A stretch of 43,666 nucleotides of DNA, taken from an uncultured Sphingorhabdus sp. Its GTDB lineage: Bacteria > Pseudomonadota > Alphaproteobacteria > Sphingomonadales > Sphingomonadaceae. The notes under the pieces are model-generated. The model saw nothing but the letters and a program-made list of their open reading frames with translations, did not search any database and had not been told where the DNA came from. The position numbers were made by a program, and so were the translations under genes. Positions 31,108 to 40,379 of this stretch are shown here, piece after piece (position 1 is the stretch's first letter; each line of letters opens with the position of its first letter). The stretch covers positions 1-43,666 of the forward strand of contig CALDZL010000001.1 in the NCBI GenBank assembly GCA_937944295.1, read 5' to 3'.

Positions 31108-32214
31108 TCAAACAGGGTCAGCGAATGTATCGGGGTTGCTGGGGTTAAAAATATTATGCGCCCAGAAAAATGTAATCACATCCTGATCCCCGATATTTTC
31201 TATATTATGCGTGTGCAATGGGATTTGGTCAATCGCTACGGGAGTATCGCCTGACACATGAAATATATGTACTTCGTTGGTTAAGACTTTGCGGATACGA
31301 ATAATGGCCTCGCCCGATACGACTAAGAAACGCTCGACCAAGCCGATATGGAAATGATCTCCGCGTATTTTACCGGGGGCTGTGGTGGATAAAAATGTAT
31401 GGCTGGCATTGCCGCCCTTTGCGCTTTCAAATAATGTGCCGCGATGGTCAGAATTTACCTTCATCGCCTTTGGGTAATGATGTGGATAGGCTGCGCTACG
31501 ATAGCTGTTGAATAATGTTAAATCAAAATCATCGGATAGATCGGGGAAGATATTATCCTGATAGAGCGCATGGAAATGGCTAAGCTTATCATATAAGTCG
31601 CTGATGCTCATGTCGCGGCCTTGAGGGTTTATATCACCCGTTTTTTCCGTTAATATTGCATCAATGGCAATGTCTGCGGCTGCCCCAGCATGCAGCAGGT
31701 TAACGCGGCCTTCTGGATTAATCTCTGGTGTTTTATCATTCAACAGGCAATCAATTAGAGTTGCTGTGACGTTATTGTAATTAGGCCGCGCGCATTCACC
31801 AAAAATATGCGGCAAAATCATATTGGTATAGCGATTGGCATATTGGGATAATATCTCTCCTGCGATACGCTTGGCATTGCCATAGGGTGTGTCATGCGCG
31901 GCATGGCTGCTGTTGGCATAGACGATATGCGGATTAATCCGAGCCTTGGTGCAAGCCTCTACTAGTTTTTGCGCAATATCGGGATTGGCCGTTTCGACAT
32001 CATCGCCGCGGTTGACGCCAGCAAAATGGAGGATTGCATCCACCCCATGCAGATGCTGGGATAAGTTATCATCGAATGTGGAATGGTCAATTTGAATAAT
32101 ATTATAAGGCGTTTCATCGCCGTTAAAGCGCGCACTGCAGTTGGCGGCATGAAGATGCGCCGCGCTATGCCAGCCAAGAAGCCCTTTTGCGCCAGTGATG
32201 GCGATACGCCTCAT
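31108..32214 (-). CDS. capF: CapF/FnlB bifunctional SDR-cupin enzyme of UDP-L-FucNAc synthesis
   Basis: CapF reduces and epimerises the 4-keto intermediate toward UDP-L-FucNAc/TalNAc. The 368-residue protein has an N-terminal short-chain dehydrogenase (ITGAKGLLGWH, about 5-15; FAGVNRGDD), a YGNAKRIAGE segment with the YxxxK pair, and a C-terminal cupin from about 245 (HRGTLFESAKGGNASHTFLS; RGDHFHIGLVERFLVVSGEA). This fusion is diagnostic for CapF/FnlB/WbjC. ATG 32214 is chosen because it overlaps the capE stop by one base (TAATG) and follows GGAA; an ATG 12 bases earlier is an alternative. Confidence 0.93.
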   Translation of the reverse strand: MRRIAITGAKGLLGWHSAAHLHAANCSARFNGDETPYNIIQIDHSTFDDNLSQHLHGVDAILHFAGVNRGDDVETANPDIAQKLVEACTKARINPHIVYANSSHAAHDTPYGNAKRIAGEILSQYANRYTNMILPHIFGECARPNYNNVTATLIDCLLNDKTPEINPEGRVNLLHAGAAADIAIDAILTEKTGDINPQGRDMSISDLYDKLSHFHALYQDNIFPDLSDDFDLTLFNSYRSAAYPHHYPKAMKVNSDHRGTLFESAKGGNASHTFLSTTAPGKIRGDHFHIGLVERFLVVSGEAIIRIRKVLTNEVHIFHVSGDTPVAIDQIPLHTHNIENIGDQDVITFFWAHNIFNPSNPDTFADPV

Positions 32215-33251
32215 TATGCGTTCCATGCCTTTAATTCGTTTTGAATTTCGGGCAGAGCAAGCAATATATCTTTGACGCCCTGGACATCAAGGCGCTGCGT
32301 ATTATGGCTGTGATAATCCTCTAATGGTCCTGTTTTTTCAACACCTTCAGAGAAATAAGCGCTATAATGCAGATCGCGCGCATCTAGCCTTAAACGCCAA
32401 TATTCGTCCATATCTTGTGCGGTGGTTAGCTCTTGCAAGCTGGCCAATGTTTCATATAATTTTTCAGCATGACGCCAGCCGATGGTTTTAACCTCATGGT
32501 CGGGGCGGCCAAATAGTTCGAGCAAGCCTGTTACCAAATCTTCTATCGTGCTAGCGGCGGCTTTTTTGATGAATAAATCACCTTGGCGTGCATGTTCAAA
32601 AGCAAAATTCACCAGCTCAACACTATCGCTGAGCGGCATTAAAAAGCGCGTCATTTGCGGCTCTGTAATGGTAATGGGAATGCCTTGTTTAATCTGGTTC
32701 ACAAATAATGGAATGACCGAACCGCGCGAATACATAACATTGCCATAGCGCACACAGCTGATGGTGGTGTCGGCATCGGTACCAATTTCACGGGCTGCGG
32801 CTTGGACCAATTTTTCCATCATCGCTTTGGACAGGCCCATCGCATTAATCGGCATGACGGCCTTATCCGTAGAGAGGCAGACTAAGCTTTTGACCTGCTG
32901 ATCTATCGCGCTGCGGATTACATTTTCGCTACCCAATATATTGGTACGCACCGCCTCTAATGGGAAAAATTCGCATGACGGCACTTGTTTGAGGGCCGCT
33001 GCATGAAAACAAGCATCCACACCCTTCATAGCGCGGTCAACGCTGGTGCGATCACGCACATCACCGATGAAAAAGCGCACGCGTGGATCGGTAATTTGAT
33101 TGCGCAGCATATCTTGTTTTTCTTCATCGCGGCTGAAAACGCGCACTTCCGAAATATCTTCCTTTAGCAGCCCTTTGAGCATGGTCTTGCCAAAACTGCC
33201 AGTGCCGCCTGTGATTAAAACCTTTGAAATAGCAGATGATAATTGGGCCAA
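32214..33251 (-). CDS. capE: CapE/FnlA UDP-GlcNAc 4,6-dehydratase/5-epimerase
   Basis: CapE begins UDP-L-FucNAc synthesis by inverting 4,6-dehydration of UDP-GlcNAc. The 345-residue protein has GGTGSFGKTML near 15-25, STDKAVMPINAMGLSKAMMEK with the M-x3-K catalytic pair that replaces Y-x3-K in this group, and RYGNVMYSRGSVIPLF. The family end is complete (DYHSHNTQRLDVQGVKDILLALP). The start is a TTG at 33251, supported by AAGGA five bases upstream; the first ATG is far inside. It heads a minus-strand operon capE-capF-wecB-PGT-GT4 with a 280-base promoter region shared with the divergent Crp/Fnr gene. Confidence 0.93.
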   Translation of the reverse strand: MAQLSSAISKVLITGGTGSFGKTMLKGLLKEDISEVRVFSRDEEKQDMLRNQITDPRVRFFIGDVRDRTSVDRAMKGVDACFHAAALKQVPSCEFFPLEAVRTNILGSENVIRSAIDQQVKSLVCLSTDKAVMPINAMGLSKAMMEKLVQAAAREIGTDADTTISCVRYGNVMYSRGSVIPLFVNQIKQGIPITITEPQMTRFLMPLSDSVELVNFAFEHARQGDLFIKKAAASTIEDLVTGLLELFGRPDHEVKTIGWRHAEKLYETLASLQELTTAQDMDEYWRLRLDARDLHYSAYFSEGVEKTGPLEDYHSHNTQRLDVQGVKDILLALPEIQNELKAWNA

Positions 33252-33531
33252 AGCTTTTCCTTAATATTGCAAATATATAGCAAATCTATGCGATTATATG
33301 GTTAACAAATCGTTAATTTGGGCACTATAAGATTTACTATAACATTGTTCCCGATTTGCAACCATGGCGCATGTTATAATTATTATTATAGAGTTATTTA
33401 CTGTGATGGAACTCACGGATCGATCTTGTTATAGATGTTATTCTTGATTAGCAGCTATGTTATTGTAGCATGTTAAAGAGGATATTTAGGAGGCGGAGCA
33501 GTTTATCGATAGTGAGGAACATATTGCTGCT
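33252..33531. other. Divergent promoter region between capE and the Crp/Fnr gene
   Basis: A 280-base AT-rich intergenic region. It contains the Crp-like palindrome at 33402-33417 (listed separately) and, nearer the Crp gene, an AGGAGG at 33488-33493 and GAGGA at 33514-33518. No clean -35/-10 pair was recognised. Confidence 0.4.
33402..33417. promoter_or_regulatory. Crp-like operator TGTGA-N6-TCACG
   Basis: The sequence TGTGA-tggaac-TCACG matches the Crp consensus TGTGA-N6-TCACA at nine of ten fixed positions. It is 115 bases upstream of the Crp/Fnr reading frame and 151 bases from capE, so it could serve autoregulation, control of the UDP-FucNAc operon, or both. Confidence 0.5.
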
Positions 33532-34158
33532 TTGGCGGCTTATTTAGAATGTTCGCACGATGCTGCTATGCAGCTCAGCGCAAAAATGAGCCTCAAAAAG
33601 TTTAAGCATAAAGAAATATTGCTGCATCAAGGCGACATGAATGATCAGATTTGGTTGATATTGGACGGTAATGCGCAATTACAAGCCATAGGATTTGATG
33701 GTAAAGTGACATTGCTCACCGCTCAAGGCGCTGGCGAAGTGATTGGTGCTTTTCCTGATGCACTGCAAAGCAATGTTGATATCAAAATATATCGGCATCT
33801 CTCAGCATTGCAAATTTCAGTCACAAATTTAAAACTGATAATGGATGAATATCCCAGTGTTGGGAGGGGTCTGTCTAAAATATTTGGCAATCAATATCAT
33901 ATGATAATCAACAGGTTAGCTATGCATGTTACCTTAACCGCCCATGGCCGTGTGTATGCCGAATTGTTGCGATTAGCAAATGGCAGTGATTTCATTACTC
34001 CTTTTCCTGTTGTTACGGCTATTGGGTTGATGGCGCAGACGTCACGAGAGACAGCATCACGGGCGATCATGCACTTACGGCGGCGCGGTATCATTGAAAA
34101 AAATGAGCAAGGATTGAAAATATTATCGCGTAATATGCTGGAGGATTTGGTGATATAG
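33532..34158 (+). CDS. Crp/Fnr-family transcriptional regulator
   Basis: Crp/Fnr proteins bind an effector in an N-terminal jelly-roll and DNA through a C-terminal winged HTH. This 208-residue protein has the sensor start (FKHKEILLHQGDMNDQIWLILDGNAQLQAIG) and an HTH near 165-190 (GLMAQTSRETASRAIMHLRRRGII). It has no Cys cluster, so it is not an oxygen-sensing Fnr; a cyclic-nucleotide or other ligand is possible, but the phosphate-binding cassette is not clear. The start is doubtful: the first usable codon is TTG 33532, while helical-looking sequence continues upstream (EEHIAALAAYLE) past AUU/AUC codons and AGGAGG at 33488. The gene faces the TIR operon tail-to-tail. Confidence 0.85.
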   Translation: MAAYLECSHDAAMQLSAKMSLKKFKHKEILLHQGDMNDQIWLILDGNAQLQAIGFDGKVTLLTAQGAGEVIGAFPDALQSNVDIKIYRHLSALQISVTNLKLIMDEYPSVGRGLSKIFGNQYHMIINRLAMHVTLTAHGRVYAELLRLANGSDFITPFPVVTAIGLMAQTSRETASRAIMHLRRRGIIEKNEQGLKILSRNMLEDLVI

Positions 34159-34173
34159 GTATGCGATAAGCCG

Positions 34174-35637
34174 CTATAAAATTCGCCATAAGGATTGCAT
34201 GCCCCAAGGCGTTTTTAGATCACCAAATTCTTCGATACTTTGTGCAATATTGGCAAATTCAAATGCCATAGCGCTGTTATAATCGCAACTAATACCATAA
34301 GGTTTTGAGATTGAGGCAAAGGCTTTTACGCGCTCTATCATATCAGCAGTAGGGGCATTCATTATATCGAAAATACAAGCTATTTTGCATCTATCATTCA
34401 TGAAGTTTTGCGCTATCTGATAGGCCTTATATATATTATCACCTACCCAATAATGCCCATCTTCATGCGCATTTAGAACGATATTATCGCTTTGTAAGGG
34501 ATCGACACCATCGAACCATAATAATATTTGCAATTTCTGACCCTCATGATCGGTGGTGAATAAACCATTATTATCGTCTATGCGGGCTGCATCTAATGCT
34601 GTGAGATTATATCCTTTATGTTCCCAATCTATCAGATTGGGGCGTAATTTCTCGCCTCTGCCTTTTATTGTAAAAGCTTTGGCACTGCTGCGCAAATTTC
34701 GAGCGTTACGCAATACTTGACCCATCGCTATTTTGTCCGCCATCGCAACGGCAAGATGGTGCGGTGGATTATCCAAACCCATTTCAATAACAGTGTCGGC
34801 TTGTGCAATGATCGTCTGAAAACCCTTAATCCAATGTGCACCAAATGGCGCTAGCGATAATTGACAAAATTCATCTATTGGAAATGGCAGAATAATGTGT
34901 AATTCCGCCAGTGGATTTTGGTTTTCGCGATATCGTAAAAAAGATTGTGCGCATAAAATATCGCTACCTGCAGCCAGCGATCCGCAAAAAAAGCTAGGTT
35001 TTATATTTTTGATATAGTCATCAATATCTGATGTTATGGCCTCATCTTCTAGGCGGATAATACCGCTATAATGAACGCTGCACGGTGGGCGGTGACGCTC
35101 TAACCAATCACTCTTTTTGCTTTGTTCGGACAATATAATCTTAAATTGCCCGATTGTGGCGGCATGATCCTCCCAAGCATTGGGCAGTTTTGCTATGGCA
35201 TCAGCCAATATTGCTCTTGCTTTAACCTCATCGCCAATTAGTAATAATGCCTCGGCATAGGTGGCGCCGCGCCAATAAGCATTCTCGCCCTCATCAGGGT
35301 TATTCTCAATAAGGGCGATGACTTGTGATGCTAATCTGCGCGCACGATTCGGTTTTCCGCTTAGAAGTGCGAGCGCTGCGGCATTAATAAGCGGATAGCT
35401 ATCGGCTTCTAAGAGTGCGGCTTTCTCATAGGCATTGGCGGCTTGCTCATAGAGTTGCATGGCCTCAGCGGCTTGGTGAGCTGCTTGGGCGGCTTTGGCC
35501 TGATCCTTTAACAACCTCCCTTTGAGGGTGAGGACTTTTGGATCATTTTCATCCCAAGCGGATTGGATAAAAAGATCCCAAGCCCGCGCAGGAGAACCTG
35601 AACGGGCAAGGGAGAGAATTTGGGCTAATGTGGTCAT
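34174..35637 (-). CDS. TPR protein with SLOG/Rossmann-like middle region (third gene of TIR operon)
   Basis: I recognise the architecture but no named function. Of its 487 residues, 15-170 are TPR-like helical pairs (ALALLSGKPNRARRLASQVI; ATYAEALLLIGDEVKARAIL). Residues 185-290 hold an alpha/beta domain (VHYSGIIRLEDE; PSFFCGSLAAGSDILCAQSFL, 214-233; AELHIILPFP, 244-253; GFQTIIAQADTVI). The pattern G-S-L-A-x-G-x-D-I-L followed by H-I-x-L-P-F is seen in TPR proteins next to nucleotide-cyclase-type genes, as I recall it, and recalls a SLOG-type nucleotide pocket. The C-terminal 150 residues contain an alpha/beta region (QKLQILLWFDGVDPLQ, KIACIFDIMNAPT). It starts 12 bases after the middle gene, so it is cotranscribed. 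Confidence 0.75.
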   Translation of the reverse strand: MTTLAQILSLARSGSPARAWDLFIQSAWDENDPKVLTLKGRLLKDQAKAAQAAHQAAEAMQLYEQAANAYEKAALLEADSYPLINAAALALLSGKPNRARRLASQVIALIENNPDEGENAYWRGATYAEALLLIGDEVKARAILADAIAKLPNAWEDHAATIGQFKIILSEQSKKSDWLERHRPPCSVHYSGIIRLEDEAITSDIDDYIKNIKPSFFCGSLAAGSDILCAQSFLRYRENQNPLAELHIILPFPIDEFCQLSLAPFGAHWIKGFQTIIAQADTVIEMGLDNPPHHLAVAMADKIAMGQVLRNARNLRSSAKAFTIKGRGEKLRPNLIDWEHKGYNLTALDAARIDDNNGLFTTDHEGQKLQILLWFDGVDPLQSDNIVLNAHEDGHYWVGDNIYKAYQIAQNFMNDRCKIACIFDIMNAPTADMIERVKAFASISKPYGISCDYNSAMAFEFANIAQSIEEFGDLKTPWGMQSLWRIL

Positions 35638-35649
35638 AGGAAGGTCGCT

Positions 35650-36570
35650 TCATGGTGGACCAAAATTTGTTCCTGTGGGGTCGATTACCATCGTAATTTT
35701 CTTCTCAGTCTCAGGCGTTCTATTTTGAGGGTCTATATATGTTTTGGGTGATGTGCTTACACGAAATATGAGATCAAATTTATAAACATCAGGATTTTTA
35801 TCATTATATTTTCTGATTTCACCAGTTGCACAGCTAATATGCCTATTTTCCACGAGTAAAATTGAATGTTCCTTGGAGGGTTTAATAATTTCGCTATTGC
35901 AGAAACATTTATGTTTGTTGCTGCAACTTTCTCCTTTTGTTTCTATTTCCCCTATTTGGCTAGGAATAATCTGTTTTGAAAAATGCAGCGCATGGTTTTT
36001 ATTTTCATGGTGATAAAATGACCAATCCTCTTCATCCAACATGAATGCTAAATAGCAGGGCCTATTCCATATCACTTCATCAGGGTTTATGGACTCTAAT
36101 TCTCCTTTACCGATTGATTGTTGATCTAGTGGTTTATTATTAAGCCAGATTTTGACTTGGCCTAATATCTCATTCTTTATTTCATTTATATGACCTGAGT
36201 CTGTATAATTACTATTACAATTAATATTTGCAGAAAATACCCGTGATACCAGCGCACCATTCGTATCAAATTTGAAATAGTAGAAATATAGTTTTTCGGG
36301 TTTAAAAGGATGAGAGACCTTTTCATTGGGTGGATATTCGGTATAGTGGTGGAAATTGGATGCCTCATAACGTCCTCCAATGGTGAGCAATAACTTTTTT
36401 AATATGTCCCCCATTTCCTCATTATTAATAGTGAAATTAGAGGGTATAAGATCTTTGATTAAATCAATAAGACTCGATGTTGCATTGCCTGCCAGCGGTA
36501 CATTTGCTTTATTTGTATCACTATCTAAGGTTAGAAGATCACTCAATTCTTTATCTGTATATAATGGCAT
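35650..36570 (-). CDS. Uncharacterised 306-residue protein (middle gene of TIR operon)
   Basis: I recognise no family. The protein is soluble and beta-rich, with no signal or membrane helix. The N-terminal part is hydrophilic and helical (LIDLIKDLIPSNFTINNEEMGDILKKLLLTIG), followed by many aromatic beta strands (EKLYFYYFKFDTNGALVSRVF; VIWNRPCYLAFMLDEEDWSFY; NHALHFSKQIIP). A Cys-rich loop near 228-239 (ESCSNKHKCFCNSE) could bind a metal. The end shows VYKFDLIFRVSTSP and KKITMVIDPTGTNFG. It follows the TIR gene by 13 bases with GGGAG before the ATG and precedes the TPR gene by 12, so it is the middle of one operon. Substrate-sensing or effector roles are equally open. Confidence 0.7.
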   Translation of the reverse strand: MPLYTDKELSDLLTLDSDTNKANVPLAGNATSSLIDLIKDLIPSNFTINNEEMGDILKKLLLTIGGRYEASNFHHYTEYPPNEKVSHPFKPEKLYFYYFKFDTNGALVSRVFSANINCNSNYTDSGHINEIKNEILGQVKIWLNNKPLDQQSIGKGELESINPDEVIWNRPCYLAFMLDEEDWSFYHHENKNHALHFSKQIIPSQIGEIETKGESCSNKHKCFCNSEIIKPSKEHSILLVENRHISCATGEIRKYNDKNPDVYKFDLIFRVSTSPKTYIDPQNRTPETEKKITMVIDPTGTNFGPP

Positions 36571-36583
36571 AATTCACTCCCTA

Positions 36584-38140
36584 TTATTTTAGCGTCTCTA
36601 AACTCTCTTGTATTAGCCTGTATATTTTGCGCCGTTCGGCATTTTCTGCATCTAATTCCAAAAGTTTTTTTGCTTGAACCAATGCGCTATTGAGACGTTT
36701 ACGGGCTATGGCTTTCTTGCCCAATTTCGCCTCGACTAGTGCAATAGCACGCTCGCTAATGAGTAATTTCATTTTCATATCCGCATTGTCGGGATTGGTT
36801 CTTACGAGCTTTGATTTCAGCTGAACTTCTTTTTTCCTAGCAGCCAGAGCAGAATCGTAATCCTGCTCTCTGTAAAATGTGTCGGCGAACCAGGCATATG
36901 CATTGGCAAGTTCGGCCAATATATTTTGATCCTCAGGTTCTCTAGTAAATGCCTTTTCAAACCAGCTTATGGCCTTCTCAAAATGATTCCGTGCTTCAAT
37001 ATTATTATTAAAATTTTTATGTTCCAATATACCCAAATTACTGGCGGCGTAGGCGCGCTCTAGCAAAGCTCTTTTGCTATCATTTTCCAGCATATGAAGT
37101 CGATTAGCTAGGGTCGCGTATTGATTATAGCGTTGTTGGGCGGCTGGATAATCTTGCTGCAATTCATCAACACGGCCAATCCAATATTCGCTTTGTGCAT
37201 GGTCGAAAATACGATTTGGGTTAGAGGGATTGCGCTCCAATAATTCTGCGGTAAAGCGATGTGCTTGTTCAAAGGGTTCTATAGCAGTATCTAAATCGCC
37301 GCGTTTTTCATGATCTTCACCAAGGGCGCGTAATGTCTCTGCGACGAGGCTCAGGCTATCATCATCCAAATTGCTAATATCGCCCTGCGATGTAAAATAC
37401 TCCATTGCTTCTTGGTTGACCTTAGTCATCACGCGTAATGTGCTGGCACCTTTTAATTCATCGCGTAAATCGCGCAGCATGAAAATGATCAGCTCTTCGG
37501 CTTGTATCTTTTGATGCTGTGCTTCTTGGCGGGCTTGGATGGCATATGCGGTCATGAGAGTCATAGCTATCAGCGCGAGCCCCGTTAAGAGTGTGATCAC
37601 CGTCACATGTTTTAATTTTCTTTGTGCATCACGCTGGATTAGAGCATCCAATGGCACATGGGCGATACCAGCAATTAATTTGAGCAAGCCCAATTTCCAA
37701 CCATCGCCCTCTTTGCGTAAATCAGCGGCAAGCGGTTCGCGGCCACCCTCAATCAAAGGGAATGGAAATGCTTGTTCGGGTTCACCAGCAATAAGCGCTG
37801 CCAGAATGGGTTTTTCGGGATGGAGTTCGCGAAATAACGCAATTTCGCGTGCAACCCATGATGATTTTTGGGCCTCAGGAGAGCATAATATTATTAGTGT
37901 GCAAGACTGACTAAGCGCTTTTTTTACCGCTTCTGATAGATCATTGCCTGCGGGTAAATCTTCTTTATCGCGAAAAATAGGTCCAATTTTGCTGTTATCA
38001 TTTTCATCTAATTTACGCAGTGCTTTTGGAAGGCGATAGGTTTCTAAGGCACGATGAAGCTTTTTAGCGATGGCGGAATCGGCATGGCTATAGCTAATGA
38101 ACGCCCCAAAATTAGAGGAGAGTTGCTGTCCTTGAACCAT
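36584..38140 (-). CDS. TIR domain-membrane-TPR protein (first gene of TIR operon)
   Basis: TIR domains in bacteria often cleave NAD or make cyclic ADP-ribose-type signals. This 518-residue protein has a TIR_2-type domain at 9-120: FGAFISYSHADSAIAKKLHRALE (strand A, box 1), FRDKEDLPAGNDLSEAVKKAL (BB loop region), then TLIILCSPEAQKSSWVAREI. Glu99 in WVAREI matches the catalytic Glu of SARM1-like NADases (WVHKEI). A membrane helix follows at about 179-199 (VTVITLLTGLALIAMTLMTAY), then a long TPR region from about 260 to 510 (pairs such as GDLDTAIEPFEQAHRF and NIEARNHFEKAISWFEKAF). The TIR would be cytoplasmic and the TPR periplasmic if the helix spans once. It heads the three-gene operon. Confidence 0.9.
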   Translation of the reverse strand: MVQGQQLSSNFGAFISYSHADSAIAKKLHRALETYRLPKALRKLDENDNSKIGPIFRDKEDLPAGNDLSEAVKKALSQSCTLIILCSPEAQKSSWVAREIALFRELHPEKPILAALIAGEPEQAFPFPLIEGGREPLAADLRKEGDGWKLGLLKLIAGIAHVPLDALIQRDAQRKLKHVTVITLLTGLALIAMTLMTAYAIQARQEAQHQKIQAEELIIFMLRDLRDELKGASTLRVMTKVNQEAMEYFTSQGDISNLDDDSLSLVAETLRALGEDHEKRGDLDTAIEPFEQAHRFTAELLERNPSNPNRIFDHAQSEYWIGRVDELQQDYPAAQQRYNQYATLANRLHMLENDSKRALLERAYAASNLGILEHKNFNNNIEARNHFEKAISWFEKAFTREPEDQNILAELANAYAWFADTFYREQDYDSALAARKKEVQLKSKLVRTNPDNADMKMKLLISERAIALVEAKLGKKAIARKRLNSALVQAKKLLELDAENAERRKIYRLIQESLETLK

Positions 38141-38346: not shown

Positions 38347-38895
38347 ATGAAATATATATTTGCAATTATTGCGATATTAGCACTTATATTTGGGGTATGG
38401 TATGCTGCATCACCTTATATTGCTCTATCGGGATTGCACGATGCAGCCGCTGCGGGAGATGCTAAGGGTATAGAAGAACATGTCGATTTTGCCTCTCTGC
38501 GGGCCTCTGTCAAAAGTGAATTTAAGGCTAGGTTGAGCGCTGAAGCTGCAAAGGAAGATGCCAATCCTTTGCTAGCGACGGTGGGGCTTGCTCTGGCAGA
38601 TCGCATGGTTGATGGTATGCTCGACAATATGATGACGCCAAGCGGTATCGCCAAGATGATTAAAATATCTCAGGATAAGGCAGAGGATGTTAGCGCAGTG
38701 GTTGCGCAAGATGAACAAAAGCCAGCAGTGGATAAATTTGATGAATGGGAAGTTGAACGCATTGGTTTGTCTGAATTTCGTCTGTCTAACCCTAATGATA
38801 GGCAAAATCCTGAGCTTATATTTCAGCGCGATGGATTGGGTTGGAAATTATCCAATGTTGATATGACGCATATGGAATTGCCGTTGCTGCAGTAA
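38347..38895 (+). CDS. DUF2939 domain protein
   Basis: DUF2939 proteins are small envelope proteins of unknown function found in many proteobacteria. The 182-residue protein has an N-terminal hydrophobic helix at about 3-23 (YIFAIIAILALIFGVWYAASPY) that could be a signal anchor, then the family motif (ALSGLHDAAAAGDAKGIEEHVDFASLRASVKSEFKARL), helices around MVDGMLDNMMTPSGIAKMI, and a beta-rich end (FDEWEVERIGLSEFRLSNP; LGWKLSNVDM). The domain is probably outside the cytoplasm. A TTGACA at 38291-38296 upstream may be part of its promoter. It is divergent from the TIR operon. Confidence 0.88.
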   Translation: MKYIFAIIAILALIFGVWYAASPYIALSGLHDAAAAGDAKGIEEHVDFASLRASVKSEFKARLSAEAAKEDANPLLATVGLALADRMVDGMLDNMMTPSGIAKMIKISQDKAEDVSAVVAQDEQKPAVDKFDEWEVERIGLSEFRLSNPNDRQNPELIFQRDGLGWKLSNVDMTHMELPLLQ

Positions 38896-39557: not shown

Positions 39558-40379
39558 ATGGCCCGTTTAGCTTTTACAAAATTAATGCTGATCCTCTCTG
39601 TATTGGGATTGGTTATAATGCCGATGAACGCGTCGCTTGCGCAATTACAGCAAGTTGACCCTAATGATGTGATCGGACAGGTGCCCGATGAAAGCGAATT
39701 ACCATCTGCTTCGGATGTTAGAGAAGAAGCCCAAGAGCGGCTTCCATCTCGTGATGATATTCCAAATGTGCCTGATATTGATGTTCCAGATGTGAATGTA
39801 CCCGATGGCACTGTGCCAGAGGTTGGCGCACCCGATATAGCGGCGCCTAATGGGACTATACCCAGTACAGACCCAATTGGTGAAGCGCAAAGATCTACCA
39901 CCTATCAACAAGATGATGTCATAGCCGCTGCTACGGGCGTATTCGGCAAAGGGGCAGAAGGCTTAGCGAGTATTGTTGAGGATATTTTTAAAAAGCAAGG
40001 CGAGCCCAATGGCTATATAGTGGGCCGCGAAGGCGGCGCTGCCCTAGTCTTTGGTTTGCGCTATGGTTCGGGTACATTATTCCATAAAATAGAGGGTGAG
40101 CGTCCTGTTTATTGGAATGGCCCATCGATTGGATTTGATGCTGGGGCCAATGCGGCCAGCACATTTGTTTTGGTTTATAACCTCTATGATAGTGAAGATC
40201 TATACCGCCGTTATCCTGCGGGTGAGGGGGCGGCCTATTTAATTGGCGGTTTTAATGCGAGCTATTTACGGCGCGGTGATGTGGTGTTAATTCCCATAAG
40301 ACTGGGAGTTGGTGCGCGGCTTGGCGTTAATGCAGGCTATATGAAGTTCCGCAAGAAACGCAAAATATTACCATTTTGA
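39558..40379 (+). CDS. eipA: EipA/DUF1134 family envelope protein
   Basis: EipA (DUF1134) is a periplasmic beta-barrel-like protein needed for envelope integrity in Brucella and conserved in alphaproteobacteria. The 273-residue protein has a signal peptide (KLMLILSVLGLVIMPMNASLAQ, cleavage likely near 29). A long linker at about 30-115 is low-complexity and acidic, with VPD/PD repeats (NVPDIDVPDVNVPDG). The C-terminal DUF1134 core runs from about 120 (AAATGVFGKGAEGLASIVEDIFKKQGEPNGYI; EGGAALVFGLRYGSG; GFDAGANAASTFVLVYNL; IGGFNASYLRRGDVVLIPIRLGVGARLG). Homologues have a short linker; this one is long. It stands alone. Confidence 0.9.
   Translation: MARLAFTKLMLILSVLGLVIMPMNASLAQLQQVDPNDVIGQVPDESELPSASDVREEAQERLPSRDDIPNVPDIDVPDVNVPDGTVPEVGAPDIAAPNGTIPSTDPIGEAQRSTTYQQDDVIAAATGVFGKGAEGLASIVEDIFKKQGEPNGYIVGREGGAALVFGLRYGSGTLFHKIEGERPVYWNGPSIGFDAGANAASTFVLVYNLYDSEDLYRRYPAGEGAAYLIGGFNASYLRRGDVVLIPIRLGVGARLGVNAGYMKFRKKRKILPF

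Follow-up and report, generated by a model that had tools for sequence, protein, structure and literature searches.

The window analysed here is the whole of a 43,666-nucleotide stretch of DNA from an uncultured Sphingorhabdus sp. (contig CALDZL010000001.1), and our subject is a locus of four genes within it, which we call A, B, C and R. Gene A (36584-38140, minus strand) encodes a protein of 518 amino acids with a TIR domain, a transmembrane segment and a TPR region. Gene B (35650-36570, minus strand) encodes a 306-amino-acid protein that is a putative relative of the pNTSase1 group, and gene C (34174-35637, minus strand) one of 487 amino acids that combines a TPR-S domain, a SLOG-like Rossmannoid domain and a degenerate domain apparently derived from a nucleotidyl cyclase. 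Gene R (33532-34158, plus strand) encodes a Crp/FNR-type regulator and is convergent with C. A and B are separated by 13 bases and B and C by 12, so that the open reading frames, their common strand and their spacing agree with the original prediction, which had been made from the sequence alone.

A recurrent four-gene locus

Recurrence was counted in a wide locus set, the best 80 of 300 stretches with C in a large genome collection, and linkage in the 69 of these 80 loci that have room on both sides. Below, WIN denotes the window locus, L numbers denote relative loci and G numbers genomes. A lies upstream of C on the same strand in 67 of the 69 loci, a B frame lies between A and C in 65, and a Crp/FNR-type R lies near the end of C in 63, being convergent with it in 61 of those. 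Because A, the B frame and R recur at these frequencies, the trio is not a chance arrangement; it is part of a recurrent four-gene system. The trio of the original prediction was thus confirmed and found to recur, but that prediction overlooked R, the cyclase ancestry of C, a swapped cassette and a palindrome inside A. Presence is patchy, with C found in 27 of 99 relatives, and the loci nearest to the window by C are L058 and L057. Counts that had included duplicate genomes (A 97, palindrome 91, codon set 85, R 91) were redone on distinct sequences, which number 88 for A and 90 for R.

R is a dedicated fourth gene that tracks C across genomes and is not a mere neighbour. Among 61 genomes, it was detected at E <= 4e-15 in all 15 with C and in none of the 46 without C; this cut was picked after inspection of the match list, in which the next match stands at 1.5e-14. 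R is unlinked and far from C in two genomes, G009 and G024, and in L169 and L171 it lies upstream of A and divergent from it. At three loci (L042, L044 and L045, in G009, G024 and G042), a co-directional gene occupies the place of R beside C and is followed by further shared genes; the replacing gene of L044 encodes a DUF6597 plus HTH_18 protein.

The A protein is laid out, in approximate residues, as TIR domain (13-150), transmembrane segment (179-197) and TPR region (240-518). In Pfam, its TIR domain matches PF13676 (TIR_2, 6.9e-13) and PF08937 (ThsB_TIR, 2.7e-11), and a further match is to TPR_12. The position of Glu99 holds glutamate in 86 of the 88 distinct A proteins, the other two being gaps in contig-truncated copies, and the tryptophan of the W...E motif is present in 95 of 97 A proteins, duplicates included. 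We take the glutamate of this motif to be the catalytic position, as in known TIR NADases, and the TIR domain is probably an enzyme that cleaves NAD+ to an ADP-ribose-type signal. From residue 179, the window protein has a strongly hydrophobic segment, and such a segment follows residue 100 in all 95 A proteins longer than 400 amino acids (duplicates included). Together with the Pfam matches and the conserved glutamate, this bears out the predicted membrane TIR protein. Of 71 A proteins, 26 have one hydrophobic segment over the cut, 37 have two and 8 have three, where a segment near residue 140-156 is read as the last TIR helix. Lysine and arginine are more numerous before the membrane segment than after it in 37 of the 71 proteins and equal in 16. 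A single membrane segment would put the TIR domain and the TPR region on opposite sides of the membrane; the counts and charges are not decisive. Three unlinked paralogues of the TIR-membrane type (L302, L303 and L304, in G009 and G080) have neither C nor R in their 3.3-3.7 kb stretches, and the palindrome inside A is absent from them.

The C protein divides by residue into TPR-S (1-183), Rossmannoid (184-350) and cyclase-derived (353-487) domains. Its N-terminus matches PF20308 (TPR-S) at 9.4e-9, with 36.2 bits against a cut-off of 27.6, in agreement with the predicted TPR protein. The AlphaFold2 model (predicted local distance difference test score, pLDDT, 93.3) consists of TPR helices, six strands alternating with helices, and a small alpha/beta remnant. 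A fold search run with the whole of C was dominated by TPR matches, among them the ASK1 central region (5ulm), which came 36th by E-value in a list with many TPR proteins and had a root-mean-square deviation of 4.7 over 178 columns.

The original prediction had also placed a nucleotide-sensing Rossmann or SLOG pocket at residues 214-253 of C. The motif and the fold of this claim stood: G219, L221, A223, G224 and D226 are invariant in 52 C homologues, and the AlphaFold2 model places the resulting G-x-L-x-A-G-x-D loop after strand 2 of a Rossmannoid middle domain, so that beta/alpha alternation and loop correspond to the Rossmannoid fold with glycine-rich loop by which SLOG is recognised. The assignment to SLOG itself came out weak. 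LOG is a member of the SLOG superfamily, and hhalign aligned the middle domain with a LOG profile of 21 sequences over 143 columns with the loops matched, at P 0.0011 and a probability of 20%. In the same comparisons, P was 0.01 for DprA-LOG, an accepted SLOG pair, 0.18 for DprA against the middle domain, and 0.11 and 0.05 for the TIR and Crp controls. Pfam SLOG models gave no match to the middle domain in 8 copies, and no PDB sequence matched it below E 0.17, the best being an unrelated enzyme.

Gene B had been described as unrecognised, and its window copy indeed has no match at E <= 1 in Pfam, PADLOC or NCBIfam and gives no hit at the cut-off of PF20301 (pNTSase1). Against that cut-off of 25 bits, the same-place B proteins of L048, L049 and G058 reach 48.1, 25.2 and 147 bits, while those of L033 and L044 fall below it at 24.5 and 21.5. 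The window protein thus appears to be related to pNTSase1 by position and C-terminal tail only. Within this tail, of the IDPxxxN type, D297 and P298 are the sole invariant residues in 43 B proteins; by a loose pattern, the tails of 71 B proteins are IDP-type in 64, HGGxHP in 3 and neither in 4. HGGIHPP-like tails replace IDPxxxN in L032, L066, L073 and others, and the B protein of L042 carries the tail motif three times. The rest of the protein is highly divergent, a score cut of 0.2 dividing the 71 sequences into 36 clusters, of which 24 have a single member. The AlphaFold2 model of the window copy is of low confidence (pLDDT 68) and its best PDB match has E 0.12, so that B as a proven nucleotide synthetase is unsupported by fold. 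Export of B as a rule was likewise rejected, a strongly hydrophobic N-terminus being present in 3 of 96 B proteins, of which L039 and L074 are identical. The B protein of L056, which is not among the three, has a lipoprotein-like start.

A hypervariable block from the end of A through B

The variability of B extends into A. A hypervariable cassette at 35650-37200 on the minus strand (left edge approximate) runs from the C-terminal TPR of A, here TPR2, from about residue 320-330, to the end of B. Between WIN and L031, the TIR domain is 82% identical, the three parts of C 81%, 81% and 74%, and R 86%, whereas A falls to 15-40% past about residue 320 and B is unrelated (score 0.03). The clearest species pairs repeat this pattern, with TIR, C and R 71-98% identical and the cassette sharply different. 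At the DNA level, L049 and L050 are 88-100% identical outside the block and 40-74% inside it.

Among 26 disjoint nearest pairs of loci, B is unrelated (score < 0.2) in 9 and related in 17. The 9 swapped pairs retain 64-89% identity in TIR and 51-81% in C, and their mean TPR2 minus TIR identity is -42.9, compared with -14.1 in the 17 others (p 0.0012). Over 71 loci, partial Mantel comparisons that control for C tied TPR2 to B (r 0.52, p 0.001) but showed no such link between TIR and B (-0.02, p 0.66) and next to none between R and B (0.08, p 0.06). L127, with an overextended A frame, was left out of the TPR2-pair and partial Mantel comparisons, and in the comparisons of TPR2 with TIR the slices of 8 A proteins begin at the start of the open reading frame. 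Taken together, these data establish computationally both the hypervariable block and the covariation of TPR2 with B. Contact between the TPR2 arm and the B protein may accompany this covariation, and the constant tail on an otherwise variable B suggests an adaptor whose body would meet TPR2 and whose tail would meet a constant part. Cassettes also appear to move between loci. Although L061 and L082 are distant, they are alike in TPR2 (0.44) and B (0.34), with C at 0.33, whereas L062, a near relative of L061 with C 78% identical, has an unrelated B (0.08) and a TPR2 of 27% identity; this one clear case suggests cassette traffic.

A variable 3' end and a variable downstream gene swapped between constant flanks are also the layout of polymorphic effector-inhibitor pairs, such as those of contact-dependent inhibition systems, in which a tip and its immunity protein are exchanged. 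B would then restrain its cognate A, loss or mismatch of B would free the TIR domain, and C and R would report the state. The position of B directly downstream of A and the three hydrophobic N-termini among 96 B proteins are consistent with this explanation. Against it, Pfam found no delivery or export domain in the window A protein, and most copies of B keep a constant C-terminal tail (the 64 of 71 that are IDP-type by the loose pattern). We consider such a pair unlikely.

Envelope or metabolic stress signalling, in which A would sense a periplasmic or membrane condition, R would adjust expression and the diversity of the cassette would reflect different envelope ligands, draws on the dedicated transcription factor and on the genomic setting. 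The window operon lies between a polysaccharide-type gene and, on its other flank, genes for a DUF2939 protein (38347-38895) and an EipA (envelope integrity) protein (39558-40379). Across loci, the flanking proteins belong mostly to ordinary Pfam families among the matches listed (25 of 54), with 2 phage integrases. The patchy presence in 27 of 99 relatives speaks against a role of this kind, and cassettes that are replaced abruptly from one sister species to the next suit conflict more than a housekeeping role; we regard stress signalling as improbable.

Decay of the cyclase and the regulator pocket, and a palindrome inside A

The C proteins of the same-order relatives L049 and L054 carry a class III nucleotidyl cyclase (PF00211) at their end. 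The cyclase triad, two metal-binding aspartates plus a transition-state arginine (D, D, R/K), is kept in 37 of 127 distinct C proteins and not in the other 90, among which is the window copy. In the profile alignment, window C has gaps at all three columns, and with 487 amino acids it is shorter than eight cyclase-bearing TIR-linked copies (526-617). By these features it reads as a degenerate cyclase that no longer counts among class III nucleotidyl cyclases. The full-triad C proteins of wider searches mostly come without a frame matching A; L172 and L174, however, do have a nearby TIR frame, and in L270 and L277 a neighbour has a TIR-like start. Distant cyclase-bearing homologues of C in L285, L274 and L276 stand beside frames that match R, with no A match in the stretch.

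The window R protein scores 27.8 bits against PF00027 (cNMP_binding, cut-off 27.5) and 36.2 against PF13545 (Crp-type HTH, cut-off 27). Its phosphate cassette for cyclic nucleoside monophosphates (cNMP) is not intact, the glutamate, arginine and serine or threonine being replaced by alanine, serine and asparagine. The recognition helix RET..R is kept: its first arginine and its glutamate are found in all 90 distinct R proteins and its last arginine in 89, and in E. coli CRP these residues read GTGA. Of the 89 loci with a scored R, 10 have both cyclase aspartates, and the phosphate cassette is intact in 9 of these and in none of the other 79. The exception among the 10, L092, has lost the arginine.

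On a quick, unrooted tree of the TPR and middle domains of C, the cyclase and R-pocket traits each change once, at the same split. A clade of 98 rows (Shimodaira-Hasegawa-like approximate likelihood ratio test 100) holds nearly all TIR-linked sequences and comprises 8 cyclase-bearing rows and 90 decayed ones, the latter forming one group (support 99). The change is read as a loss on the ground that the cyclase is widespread outside the TIR-linked clade. The TIR label changes 7 times on this tree, partly since contig-edge loci were scored as being without TIR.

The only exact match to TGTGA-N6-TCACA in the window lies at 37592-37607, in codons 179-183 of A and at the start of its membrane segment, and 100 shuffles gave none. 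The core GTGA-N6-TCAC occurs three times in the 43.7 kb window, compared with 0.28 expected, and all three sites are in this locus: one at 33403-33416, upstream of R and between R and capD, one at 33706 inside R, and one at 37593 inside A. The site inside R is not conserved (1 of 66 loci). The site inside A has its core in 85 of 86 informative distinct genes, L043 being without it and L060 and L072, of the 88 distinct genes, being truncated. Sites upstream of R are present in 19 of 65 loci (20 sites, compared with 0.1 in shuffles) and upstream of A in 10 of 66, and they are rare elsewhere, with 1 more in A, 2 in B, 2 in C and 1 in R. The TIR genes without the site are those of L169, L171, L172 and L174 and the three unlinked paralogues; L168 and L170 carry it. 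A conserved dyad upstream of A was rejected as a candidate, since the commonest occurs in 8 of 74 only, the internal site reaching 50 of 75 as the background of the same test. A Polysacc_synt_2 dehydratase gene (32214-33251) lies beside R and divergent from it, and the 33403 site could also serve that gene.

R itself, rather than another Crp protein, may bind the palindrome. The competing explanation is that the palindrome reflects a protein constraint or is a global Crp site, with R merely a linked gene. At this place, A also has a conserved protein motif, V[TMI]x[IVL]T, and the site is kept in six loci without an adjacent R. The codon choice goes beyond the protein motif. All 82 distinct genes that encode it have GTG for valine, TC at the end of the fourth codon and ACG or ACA for threonine, where the codon usage of each gene would predict 29.5, 41.8 and 38.3 genes; the combination that makes the palindrome is used in 82 of 82 genes, compared with 15.3 expected (85 of 85 with duplicates). 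In a codon alignment of 71 genes, the valine column is also the most uniform of the 79 that are both conserved and degenerate. Further, the additional sites cluster upstream of R and A and not in other genes, and two of the genomes without an adjacent R, G009 and G024, have R elsewhere. These results leave the protein-constraint or global Crp explanation with little probability.

Mechanism and relation to known systems

We propose that A would be a membrane receptor in which the TIR enzyme cleaves NAD+ to an ADP-ribose-type signal and the C-terminal TPR forms a variable recognition arm. This arm would have B as its variable partner, and the unvarying tail at the C-terminus of B may be a docking point for some constant component of the system. 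C would read the product or state of the TIR domain via its TPR-S/SLOG-like module. Ancestrally, C would have made a cyclic nucleotide that the Crp-type R sensed. In the window clade, R must be controlled in another way because the cyclase and the R pocket have both decayed, and direct contact or the abundance of R itself may take over that control. Transcription of the system would be under the control of R, probably acting at the GTGA-N6-TCAC sites inside A and upstream of its own gene. Our preferred reading, which we put somewhat short of an even chance, is a membrane TIR receptor whose recognition arm and partner can be exchanged, together with C as TPR-S/SLOG-like reader and R as a regulator devoted to the system. 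The specificity may serve recognition of an invader or of non-self. The trigger could be phage, kin or stress: the parts make phage defence plausible, and the cassette suits kin recognition or envelope sensing just as well. A fuller version, in which the locus is a polymorphic receptor whose cartridge (TPR2 of A plus B) is traded between species around a fixed core for self/non-self or invader recognition, with R acting via a coding-sequence operator and outliving the cyclic-nucleotide step, is tentative and rather doubtful as a whole.

Several observations weigh against the receptor reading. TPR2 and B are contiguous, so that one recombination could swap both without any protein contact; yet C, which starts 12 bases from B, stays outside the block, and the left edge of the block falls within A. 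L049 and L050, with C 98% identical, have a TPR2 of 33% identity although their B proteins score 0.73, and the arm of A can therefore vary without replacement of B. The swapped pairs L105/L113 and L039/L041 keep TPR2 at 51% and 44%. Because a single split of the tree is shared, the correlation between cyclase and pocket, and hence their co-loss, amounts to one event and not 89, and a Fisher test across the loci is not valid for it. The state of the cyclase remnant depends on the alignment, MAFFT giving window C an aspartate in both metal columns and no arginine. In L169 and L171, A lacks the palindrome although R is present, and the six loci that keep the site without an adjacent R (L087, L096, L100, L109, L116 and L129) count here as well. 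To these are added the weak SLOG assignment of the middle domain of C, a B protein whose model offers no convincing fold, and flanking proteins that give no defence signal.

The last point was assessed by PADLOC on 64 of 123 flanking proteins at E <= 1e-10, which returned just one RtcR-type regulator and one weak mad2. A position in a defence island was thus not found, and phage defence draws no support from the neighbourhood. Carriage by mobile elements was rejected too, C having no match in 50,697 phage records and one in 72,556 plasmid records.

If the cassette sets specificity, these loci amount to a natural allelic series in which the choice of trigger by a bacterial TIR receptor can be studied. 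Three stages can also be seen among living relatives: a TPR-S/SLOG-like cyclase that in most cases has no TIR beside it; this protein in company with TIR, B and a regulator whose cNMP pocket is intact; and a form in which the cyclic-nucleotide step has decayed. A family staged in this way makes testable what TPR-S, a module common to animal ASK kinases, senses. A candidate operator within coding sequence, kept in 85 of 86 distinct informative genes, is unusual.

Among known systems, Thoeris is the one whose logic the original prediction had invoked. The likeness lies in a TIR protein and a SLOG-like Rossmannoid protein encoded together, but here the TIR protein is a membrane TIR-TPR protein, accompanied by TPR-S, a Crp regulator and a variable cassette, and there is no SIR2-SLOG effector. 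Thoeris-like phage defence, with the TIR enzyme making a cyclic ADP-ribose isomer and the SLOG-like domain of C acting as a receptor that directly activates an effector, could claim the ThsB_TIR similarity, the glutamate, the Rossmannoid domain and its weak LOG match, but it appears quite improbable in view of a C protein with no SIR2 or other fused effector and no ThsA match (Pfam, PADLOC), an ancestral output domain of C that was a cyclase and not a killer, and the phage, plasmid and flanking-protein results above. Thoeris logic as such, and membership of Thoeris, were not borne out.

Pycsar (PycC with PycTIR or PycTM) shares the ancestral class III cyclase, a cNMP-binding Crp-type domain and TIR, and the R protein of L049 matches the PADLOC PycTIR model over residues 25-148, its cNMP-binding part. 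Here, the cNMP-binding domain sits on a DNA-binding regulator and is not fused to TIR, and the cyclase has been lost in the window clade. Membership was rejected, as C of L049 and L054 has no PADLOC match at E 0.01 and window C is degenerate. The animal ASK (MAP3K5) signalosome is alike in the Pfam matches TPR-S and MAP3K_TRAF_bd and in the 5ulm match to the TPR of C; instead of a kinase, the present system has SLOG-like and cyclase-derived domains.

Contact-dependent inhibition (CDI), Rhs and type I restriction specificity genes are cases of a constant gene with an exchanged 3' part between conserved flanks. Polymorphic toxin-immunity loci resemble the present one in an exchanged 3' portion and downstream partner between constant flanks, whereas here the constant part is TIR plus a membrane segment, no delivery module was seen and the tail of the partner is constant.

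The original prediction knew of no described system with this exact gene set, a statement that proved too strong, TPR-S and pNTSase1 being named Pfam families. Our literature search, in an incomplete library, retrieved no paper on the dedicated R, the joint decay, the TPR2-B block or the coding-sequence palindrome, and none combining TPR-S with TIR and SLOG or with a nucleotide synthetase, or a TRAFs-binding domain with TIR. Burroughs and Aravind (J Bacteriol 202:e00365-20) reportedly predicted, in 2020, a set of immune components including TPR-S and pNTSase1, with TIR, and are said to have described TPR-S as a TPR scaffold sensing NAD-derived signals. With TPR-S and pNTSase1 reportedly coming from that prediction, the novelty of the core gene set is improbable. 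The present locus resembles those predictions in TPR-S on C, pNTSase1 on the B proteins of relatives and TIR alongside; found here in addition are the dedicated regulator R, the joint decay of cyclase and regulator pocket, the hypervariable TPR2-B block and the palindrome within coding sequence.

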